64,000 nucleotides of DNA, taken from contig JABLXA010000001.1 of NCBI GenBank assembly GCA_013178415.1, positions 159,445-223,444 on the forward strand, read 5' to 3'. The stretch's first letter is position 1. Each line of letters opens with the position of its first letter. Both the position numbers and the translations under genes were made by a program. Source of the DNA: Bacillota bacterium. Lineage in GTDB: Bacteria > Bacillota > SHA-98 > Ch115. Below are positions 13,804-16,488 of this stretch, in pieces. A model generated the notes under the pieces. That model saw only the letters and a program-made list of their open reading frames with translations, did no database searches and had not been told where the DNA came from.

Positions 13804-14556
13804 CTAGCCCCCCTCAATTACTTGTCGCACATACGTTTTGGATGCCTTCTTAATTGCAAGCATTAATGGATCATCGAGTTCCAACTGGCGCAGTGGGAGG
13901 AGAGCCCCGATCTTCTCGGAAATCTTATTCAGTGTCAAGTCCGTGGGGTGAATTATGATCAGTTGTATTCTATTCTCTATACTAAGACCCTTTTTGATCA
14001 GATCTCGCATTCTCCGATCCACAGCTTCCTCTTTGCCCGGATATCGCTTTGTCGGGCCATAGTGTTGGGCCCCGTTGAATTCAAATGCTACTCCCCTATG
14101 ATAGAGACGATCATATTCCAAATTTTGCCCAGTCACCGGGTTTTGCAGGAAATCAGGTCTTACATTATCCTCAAAGTCCTGGTCGTCGACCAGCAAATCC
14201 AGCCATGCCTTCATAAGAAATTCTCCCCGATTTGTCGCCCTGGCCAGCTTCCTTTGGAATTCCTCTGCCTCGCGTCCCCTGGCATCTAAAACAGGGTTGC
14301 GCGCTATTATGGTCAACCAACTGGCTCGATCCCTTTTTTGTTCGATTATCTCTACCCAGCCTTTATCCGCCAGTACTCTCAAGTATCTCTTAAGTGTGTT
14401 TCGCGACCGAAAGCCGGCAGATCGCATCAATTCTTCGGTCCGGACTGGGCTCTGGCCATCTGGGCTATTGAGGAGAATGGCGATATACAGCATTCTCTCG
14501 TATACCCCTAGTTTCTTGTCCGATAATAATTCCTTCGGAATCCTATTTATGTACAT
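13804..14556 (-). CDS. Winged-helix protein with a PD-(D/E)XK nuclease-like domain
   Basis: Uncharacterised 250-residue protein. Residues about 15-85 look like a winged helix-turn-helix (VYERMLYIAILLNS ... TEELMRSAGFRSRNTLKRYLRVLADKGWVEII), similar in pattern to replication-initiator or DnaD-N-like DNA-binding domains. Residues about 130-205 resemble PD-(D/E)XK-type endonucleases: Asp135 in RPDFLQNP, Glu159 in AFEFNGAQHYGP with Gln164-His165, then RDLIKKGL and the strand IQLIIIHPT. A weak ribosome binding site precedes ATG. The gene points away from a 15-fold dyad array that starts 167 bases upstream. DNA binding and cleavage are inference; it may be an immobile relic of a plasmid or element gene. 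Confidence 0.7.
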   Translation of the reverse strand: MYINRIPKELLSDKKLGVYERMLYIAILLNSPDGQSPVRTEELMRSAGFRSRNTLKRYLRVLADKGWVEIIEQKRDRASWLTIIARNPVLDARGREAEEFQRKLARATNRGEFLMKAWLDLLVDDQDFEDNVRPDFLQNPVTGQNLEYDRLYHRGVAFEFNGAQHYGPTKRYPGKEEAVDRRMRDLIKKGLSIENRIQLIIIHPTDLTLNKISEKIGALLPLRQLELDDPLMLAIKKASKTYVRQVIEGG

Positions 14557-14722
14557 ACCACATTATTCCACACAAGGGATGGATCTCCTGCCATTTAACG
14601 TAAAATATTTGCCATTAATTTTCCTGATATGTAGATCGAATCAAAGATTCAATATGAAATCATCGCGTTACCCTCAAATGCAACTATTTTCGTATTTCTA
14701 ATGATGTTATCGAAGCATTATT

Positions 14723-15215
14723 TGTCATGCGATGACAATTTGATTTGGGGGCAAACGATCATGTGACGATAGTCTGTGGTCTTTGGCCATTGTCATCCGA
14801 TGACGGTCAGACCTGCGGGATAGATGATCATAGGATGACAGTTTGTAATCTTTAGCGAATGTCATCCGATGACGGTCTGATATGGGGGACAGATGGTTAT
14901 CGGATGACGGTTTGCGATCTTTAGCAAATGTCATGTGGTGACAGTTTGGTGTAGGGGCAGATCATCATGGGATGACAATTTGTGGACTTTGCCGATAATC
15001 ATCTGGTGACAGTCTAGCGTGAGGGTAGACGATCATGGGATGACACTCTATGGCGCTTGGAGATTGTCATCCGATGACAGTTTGGTATTGGGGTAGACGA
15101 TCACGGGATGATACTTTACGGCGTTTGGCGGATGTAATGCGGTGATGATTTGTCATGTAGGCAGACGATCATGGGATGACAATCTATGACCCTTAGCGAT
15201 TGTCATCTGGTGACA
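14723..15215. repeat. Array of 15 dyads with 34-bp period
   Basis: Fifteen 15-base dyads start at 14723, 14757, 14791, 14826, 14860, 14895, 14929, 14963, 14997, 15031, 15065, 15099, 15133, 15167 and 15201, i.e. every 34 (twice 35) bases. Odd members are of the type TGTCATCCGATGACA, a perfect inverted repeat around its centre; even members are of the type GATCATGGGATGACA. The 19-base spacers also alternate in two related forms, so the higher-order unit is 68-69 bp. The dyads are better kept than the spacers. The spacers repeat and are not unique, which excludes a CRISPR. It may be a multi-site operator, iteron-like or centromere-like site. Confidence 0.9.
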
Positions 15216-15306
15216 ATTGGGGGTGCCAGACGGTGACAATCTGAGACATAAGCGGTGGATGCTTATGGGGTTATAGTTCGCAAATCATACAAGCTCGATT
15301 TTAGAA

Positions 15307-15345
15307 GTTGCGCTCGACGCAGATGGTGCACACAAAGAGCGCAAC
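15307..15345. repeat. 9-bp perfect inverted repeat
   Basis: GTTGCGCTC at 15307-15315 and GAGCGCAAC at 15337-15345 are perfect inverted copies around a 21-base loop. No T run follows. Confidence 0.75.
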
Positions 15346-15349
15346 TACA

Positions 15350-15380
15350 GGATGCTTAGATATTGGGATGCTTAGACATT
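15350..15380. repeat. 16-bp period tandem duplication
   Basis: GGATGCTTAGATATT (15350-15364) and GGATGCTTAGACATT (15366-15380) are tandem copies with one difference. Confidence 0.85.
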
Positions 15381-15495
15381 GCTGTGACTTCGGAGTTGGA
15401 TATACATGTGCATTAGAGCTGAAATCACGACGTTGGTTTGCTCATAGCGAAAATTGGGCCCTTTTAGGGCCCAACATATCAATGTATCTATATAT

Positions 15496-15540
15496 AGCCC
15501 GAGGCGTATAGGCATAGCCTGAGGCGTACAGGCATAGCCT
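15496..15540. repeat. 20-bp tandem duplication
   Basis: AGCCCGAGGCGTATAGGCAT (15496-15515) and AGCCTGAGGCGTACAGGCAT (15516-15535) are followed by the start of a third copy, AGCCTG. The GCATAGCC core reappears in the hairpin region after 16267. Confidence 0.85.
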
Positions 15541-15570
15541 GCAGCAATATCCTATTTTGATTTTGCCAGG

Positions 15571-16267: not shown

Positions 16268-16488
16268 CGATCATAATAAGGCAAACATCCATGTAGCTGA
16301 ATATGCCCATATGGCCGAGTTGGCACATAGTTGAATCCAAATATAGCCAGATCGATTATTCGGCTAGATTCGCACGCATAGCCAGATGCGAACATATGGC
16401 TATGCGTGCAGCCAGATCTGCCCATATAGCCGACTTCATGTACATAGCAGATCCCCATATATGGTTTGATTGCAGCTGCGGGCCAGAC
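16268..16488. repeat. CATAGCC-rich region with a 13-bp perfect inverted repeat
   Basis: No gene is seen in this spacer between copy B and ychF. GCACGCATAGCCA (16372-16384) and TGGCTATGCGTGC (16397-16409) form a perfect 13-base-pair hairpin with a 12-base loop. Around it are many variants of CATATGGCC and CATATAGCC. There is no T run, so a simple terminator is unlikely. Confidence 0.75.

Follow-up and report, generated by a model that had tools for sequence, protein, structure and literature searches.

Phased dyad arrays linked to winged-helix/nuclease-like genes in Bacillota, a candidate repeat-nuclease system resembling REP/RAYT

Described systems of palindromes and nucleases

Dispersed bacterial palindromes and a cognate nuclease-type gene are best known from the REP/RAYT system. 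Strains with the gene harbor about ten times more palindromes (PMC2817692), and several types occur per genome (PMC3116915). RAYTs are transposases of the Y1 tyrosine type, encoded between two inverted REPs, while REPs bear GTAG-type tags and show complementary changes within the palindrome (PMC2817692; PMC3733652). Another related group is represented by I-Bth0305I, a phage homing endonuclease of the EDxHD/Vsr-like kind (PMC3943268). The proteins described below appear to have a similar nuclease domain joined to DNA-binding modules and also reside in varying gene neighbourhoods, but no intron was seen, and many palindromic tandem sites are present instead of one long target.

BIMEs, the Neisserial dRS3/NIME arrays and the pneumococcal BOX elements are intergenic mosaics that combine short dyads with spacers. 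To our knowledge, none of these has a cognate winged-helix nuclease or a helical spacing rule. The arrays reported here are likewise intergenic mosaics of dyads and spacers and differ in both respects. Iterons of winged-helix plasmid initiators are tandem sites upstream of the initiator gene. Tandem sites upstream of a winged-helix protein gene were also found here; in contrast to iterons, they are dispersed on many contigs, the protein has a nuclease-like domain, and a plasmid search yielded no homologue of it.

The home array and its neighbouring gene

The window, a stretch of 64,000 nucleotides, belongs to the Bacillota genome G000 (3.57 Mb, 57 contigs). Four features are central:

13804 to 14556, minus strand: gene for a 250-aa protein with a winged helix and a Vsr/DUF559/homing-endonuclease-like domain
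14557 to 14722, minus strand: leader between home array and gene, delimited from the sequence
14723 to 15215, no strand: home dyad array of fifteen 15-bp dyads at 34/35 bp
15224 to 15238, no strand: probable sixteenth dyad TGCCAGACGGTGACA, 23 bp after the fifteenth dyad

The dyads are of the TGTCAT-N3-ATGACA type with the consensus TGTCATNNNATGACA, the left arm often reading GATCAT in alternate units. A motif scan located their starts at 14723, 14757, 14791, 14826, 14860, 14895, 14929, 14963, 14997, 15031, 15065, 15099, 15133, 15167 and 15201. This agrees exactly with the original prediction of fifteen dyads in a 34-bp register, with 35 bp twice, and the winged-helix/nuclease-like gene was also found as placed, its start 167 bp from the array, which is on the 5' side. 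The 23-bp step to the probable sixteenth dyad is about one helical turn below the usual spacing. Repeat finders detected an alternating higher-order unit of 68-69 bp. A three-dyad pattern matched six times in the window versus zero times in 100 shuffles; an Rfam scan of the window gave no match. The leader ends with TGTGTGGAATAATGTGGT, abutting the ATG and resembling TATAGAATAATATGGT before the ATG of the homologues in genomes G003, G004 and G009. Judged from sequence, both may represent a promoter-proximal motif.

Other repeats accompany the array. A MITE-like element with imperfect terminal inverted repeats (ATACAAGCTCGA..AGAAGTTGCGC ... CTTCGGAGTTGGATAT) occupies 15287-15403. It adjoins the arrays on contigs C1 and C27, is also present at C17:13.2k, and has more copies at C30, C15 and C17:73k. 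A short tandem 20-mer, ATAGCCTGAGGCGTACAGGC, at 15494-15541 and an irregular weak cluster of ATATGG/CCATAT dyads at 16300-16460 are possibly decayed repeats.

The window protein consists of an N-terminal winged helix (residues ~1-85), MarR/TrmB-like in family scans and fold search, and a C-terminal Vsr/DUF559/homing-endonuclease-like domain (~105-250). In all 16 homologues, the catalytic-type residues E147, D149, E159, G162, Q164, H165, D185 and K188 are unchanged. AlphaFold2 models were good, with a mean pLDDT of 89.7 for the full length and 91.6 for the nuclease part. Viral fold matches of the nuclease model in BFVD included phage homing endonucleases, Vsr and DUF559 proteins (E ~1e-5 to 1e-7). 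Fold matches of the nuclease domain in the PDB were weak (Vsr 1cw0, TM 0.47, E above 1) and included TnsA; the full-length search returned mostly winged helices. PHROG homing-endonuclease and HNH families were matched by 16/16 homologues, by the window protein over its C-terminus, and matches in phage and viral collections lay chiefly within the nuclease part. Pfam, NCBIfam and PADLOC provided no name for this part, PADLOC giving weak helix-turn-helix matches only.

Linkage, copy number and constraint of the arrays

The predicted tie between array and gene was borne out by the paralogues, the homologues and the copy numbers. G000 contains the winged-helix/nuclease gene in four paralogous copies, each with a dyad array on its 5' side, of the TGTCAT type on C1 (34.5 bp), the TGGCGA type on C2 (31.5 bp) and the AGTGYT type on C43 and C3 (32 bp). 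Among homologues in 11 related genomes, an array precedes the gene in most cases with enough upstream DNA, some contigs beginning too near the gene to judge. The repeated dyads are TCACCCGGTGA in G003 (period 35), GCATCGGATGC in G009 (34/35), TGGTCCCCAGGGGACCA in G014 and G006 (32), TGGTCGAAAATCGACCA in G012 (32) and TGACGTACGTCA in G008 (30). Arrays at L136, L137 and L142 were identified by eye, as were those of G003:C9 and G004. No array was found upstream of the homologue at L147, and a weak 64-bp repeat only was present at L144. The gap between a home array and the start codon downstream of it measures 92-583 bp, and two of 18 regions downstream of the gene contained an array. In G015 (L148, 7059-7359), a 53-bp tandem repeat of GTGGCTCTTCCTGAGAGCCAC with six even copies was observed downstream of the homologue, not upstream. 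In G003 (L135, 7455-8420), the window gene has an orthologue broken over two frames, and a regular 35-bp array lies upstream nonetheless.

The dyad and its period vary with the protein subfamily. Proteins with at least 49% identity have a common dyad layout and period, whereas the dyad is not common to proteins with at most 41% identity. The C1, G004 and G009 proteins (51-52% to C1) and the G003 orthologue are associated with a CATCSGATG or CAYCCGGTG core at 34-35 bp. The proteins of C2, G014, G006 and G012 (49-60% to C2) have a common TGG...CCA 17-mer layout at 32 bp, and C3 and C43 (83% identity) have AGTGYT in common.

Dyad copy number tracks the cognate gene clearly in one dyad family and moderately in a second. 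TGGTCCN5GGACCA is present in 145 copies in G014 and 146 in G006, but in 0-2 copies in 15 other genomes of the class (reversed-pattern controls, 0-3); the two high counts are probably lower bounds because several contigs end inside arrays. TGRCGAN5TCGYCA has 35 copies in G000 versus 0-7 elsewhere. For AGTGCTN7AGCACT, with one mismatch allowed, 20 copies were counted in G000 and four in the control. The G004/G009 dyad has hardly any exact orphan copies. The gene is absent from five of 17 genomes of the class, and no such array was found in the samples taken from gene-lacking genomes (150 kb of G001; 200 kb of G005, one GC-rich 27-bp repeat excepted), compared with seven in the 474-kb sample of G000. 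The main exception to this tracking is G003, where clear members of type-2 (AGTGCTN7AGCACT) arrays occur (L115) and a search for their cognate gene found none; arrays can therefore exist or persist without the gene. In the same genome (L117, 13100-15581), TGCCAA-N5-TTGGCA and ATGCTGC..GTAGCAT arrays flank one TPR-like gene; no winged-helix/nuclease gene is nearby, and these dyads have no assigned gene.

Besides the home array, four arrays with the same dyad were located in G000:

C4, about 113.8-114.1k: array of the home dyad
C11, about 16.9-17.2k: array of the home dyad
C17, about 96.1-96.3k: array of the home dyad
C27, about 21.9-22.3k: array of the home dyad

Their mutual identity in alignment is ~60-67%, and their spacings include 24/25 bp besides 34/35 bp, i.e. 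one helical turn apart. G000 also contains arrays of other dyads with a period of 31-32 bp, the TGGCGA-N5-TCGCCA type at four sites and the AGTGCT-N7-AGCACT type at two. Two AGTGCT-type arrays on C17 (L088, 1560-2640 and 6360-8547) are each near an Rpn-like nuclease gene, named by eye. A detector for regularly spaced dyads, applied to sampled stretches and giving no detection in three shuffles of all sequences, indicated a background density of about one array per 70 kb in G000 (seven in a 474-kb sample). Using the three-dyad pattern with one genome per species (84,980 species), the array of the home dyad was not found outside G000; the 16 matches were unrelated, many of them simple repeats. 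Viral contigs gave no match to the pattern.

Whole arrays are common to several loci in G014 and G006, mostly at 75-92% identity, and the similarity often stops within tens of bases of the array ends. Two arrays occupy orthologous sites in both genomes. At another orthologous site, the orphan array comprises 18 dyads in G006 versus six in G014, and one array of G014 is missing at the matching G006 locus, where the surroundings differ too. A clean empty site with target duplication was sought in G006 and not found, the flanks being repeat nests and contig ends. Orphan arrays of both genomes (flanks of L208-L223) were observed within nests of other interspersed repeats. Across distant loci, no conserved gene neighbour was detected.

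Distances between neighbouring dyads within a family fall into classes one helical turn apart: 32/33, 41 and 52 bp for TGGTCC (256 distances), 31/32 and 41 for TGGCGA, 32 and 41/42 for TGCCAA, 23-25 and 34-35 for TGTCAT. Family members are copies of each other and not independent events in these counts, and the rule recurs across families. The phase with a 10.5-bp helix gave R values of 0.87-0.96 in seven of eight families and 0.62 in the eighth. Bound proteins had been expected to wind around the DNA; this is consistent with the home-array family (34.5 bp), but not with most other families, in which the dyads lie about three full turns apart.

The dyads had been claimed to be better kept than the spacers through selection on a binding site. 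In 43 type-1 units from four loci, the arms hold 1.19 bits/column and the spacer ~0.22, as claimed. Local, collinear alignments of the sister species G014 and G006 (ungapped) showed a home-array divergence of 3.1% in the arms, 18.9% in the centres, 24.9% in the spacers and 6.5% in the flanks. The high spacer divergence may result from exchange with other arrays. After pooling with two orphan arrays, arms differ by 3.7% and spacers by 13.6% (P 1e-13); the two orphan orthologues alone show a modest gap (arms 3.2-4.8%, spacers 6.0-9.4%). Arm covariation was not detected within type-1 units, with 203 matching pairs versus 206 expected by shuffling (P 0.80), and G-T (31) and A-C (36) mismatches are similarly frequent. 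Missing compensation and missing G-T bias identify the constraint as that of a duplex DNA site, not a hairpin. An RNA hairpin reading was thus rejected. Constrained arms beside fast spacers uphold the claimed selection on a DNA site, for which protein binding is the probable cause.

Two more candidates were rejected. The spacers are related to one another as diverged copies, which does not fit a CRISPR array, and no cas genes were recognised by eye among the ORFs around the home array. A coding-repeat reading was set aside because the arrays sit between long ORFs, which flank rather than contain them; an exception is L221 of G006, overlapping a called ORF.

Proposed system and alternative readings

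The arrays and their cognate genes probably constitute a repeat-nuclease system that is analogous to REP/RAYT in its working, while protein and DNA are unrelated (probability about 0.6). The home array would serve the adjacent winged-helix/nuclease protein for recognition, and a dimer of that protein would bind each dyad via its winged helices. The fixed helical phase of the dyads would lead to a regular, cooperative assembly of neighbouring dimers. From the sequence comparisons, binding of the protein to its own dyads is likely. Dyads differ by protein subfamily, and each gene would therefore address its own repeat family. Orphan arrays would derive from the home array as non-autonomous copies. 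The nuclease would keep them, and probably spread them, by nicking or cutting bound arrays or the DNA close to them; repair templated by another array, or insertion, would then follow. Their relation to the protein would be much like that of REP sequences to RAYT transposases. The odds that the nuclease maintains and copies the arrays are about even. Among the options of the original prediction, a nuclease landing array fits best.

Like REP/RAYT, few nuclease-type genes occur per genome, each beside its own palindrome, of which many dispersed intergenic copies exist, one genome can have several palindrome types, and palindrome number follows the cognate gene (145/146 vs 0-2; 35 vs 0-7), with the type-2 arrays of G003 as exception. 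The differences are structural. Family scans and models indicate a winged helix with a Vsr-like nuclease and no HUH/Y1 tyrosine transposase. As a rule, the tandem array is one-sided and 5' (downstream, 2/18), whereas RAYT genes are flanked on both sides. No constant GTAG or CGTC was found beside 51 type-1 units, compensation is missing (P 0.80), and the dyads are duplex sites with helical phasing. Each structural hallmark of RAYT/REP that was checked is lacking, and the system is therefore not a member of REP/RAYT.

A regulatory or structural role for the arrays is possible. The protein could be a transcription factor whose nuclease domain is degenerate or serves signalling, and the arrays high-order operators for neighbouring genes. 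Its MarR/TrmB-like winged helix, the arrays 5' of the nuclease gene itself and five G000 arrays that lie between divergent genes, in several cases including genes of sugar metabolism, are in line with such a regulon. Yet the arrays have no preference for promoters, 13 of 25 lying between codirectional, seven between divergent and five between convergent genes (ORFs called by length only). Genes beside orphan arrays are unrelated to each other, nuclease-type residues are invariant, and dyad number at one site differs between close species, making a regulon rather unlikely. The simple operator considered originally draws no clear support from the same orientations or from home arrays ending 92-583 bp from the start codon. 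Sites for chromosome structuring, replication or partition (iterons, centromere-like sites, nucleoid bridges) would explain the helically phased spacing as suiting a cooperative filament, and phage replication initiators are among the matches of the winged helix; without a plasmid homologue or a conserved partner gene, and with the gene absent from some genomes of the class, this is improbable. Given these points and the dispersal of the arrays, the iteron or centromere-like option of the original prediction is not supported as it stood.

Many dispersed sites could also titrate the protein, whose nuclease domain is of the phage type, so that arrays would restrain a dangerous nuclease or mark self DNA. 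A defence or sponge device of this kind is very improbable, given the weak helix-turn-helix matches in PADLOC and no conserved gene nearby. Neutral tandem repeats from slippage, or a satellite, would agree with the tandem arrangement, the alternating 68-bp higher-order units and the copying of arrays as blocks. Conserved arms beside fast spacers, whole-turn spacing classes and gene linkage already contradict this reading, as missing compensation and missing G-U bias contradict RNA hairpin arrays, and hardly any credence is left to either. Dispersal in the genome, named beforehand as the mark of a simple satellite, was indeed found, but the array is tied to a cognate gene and its dyads are constrained.

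The repeat-nuclease system looks previously undescribed; no such system was found in the open-access literature, most subscription journals lying outside the search. Somewhat short of an even chance is given to the broader proposal of a second, independently evolved bacterial palindrome-nuclease partnership, in which winged-helix/Vsr-like nucleases build and copy phased arrays of subfamily-specific dyads. If true, the REP/RAYT lifestyle would have arisen again from an unrelated nuclease and would be a general outcome, not something peculiar to a single transposase. The recognition code could be learned from the naturally paired winged-helix proteins and their dyads, and the arrays, with steps of three, four and five helical turns, could act as a natural ruler for cooperative assembly. 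The system also makes testable the idea that a nuclease may spread copies of its own binding sites along a chromosome.
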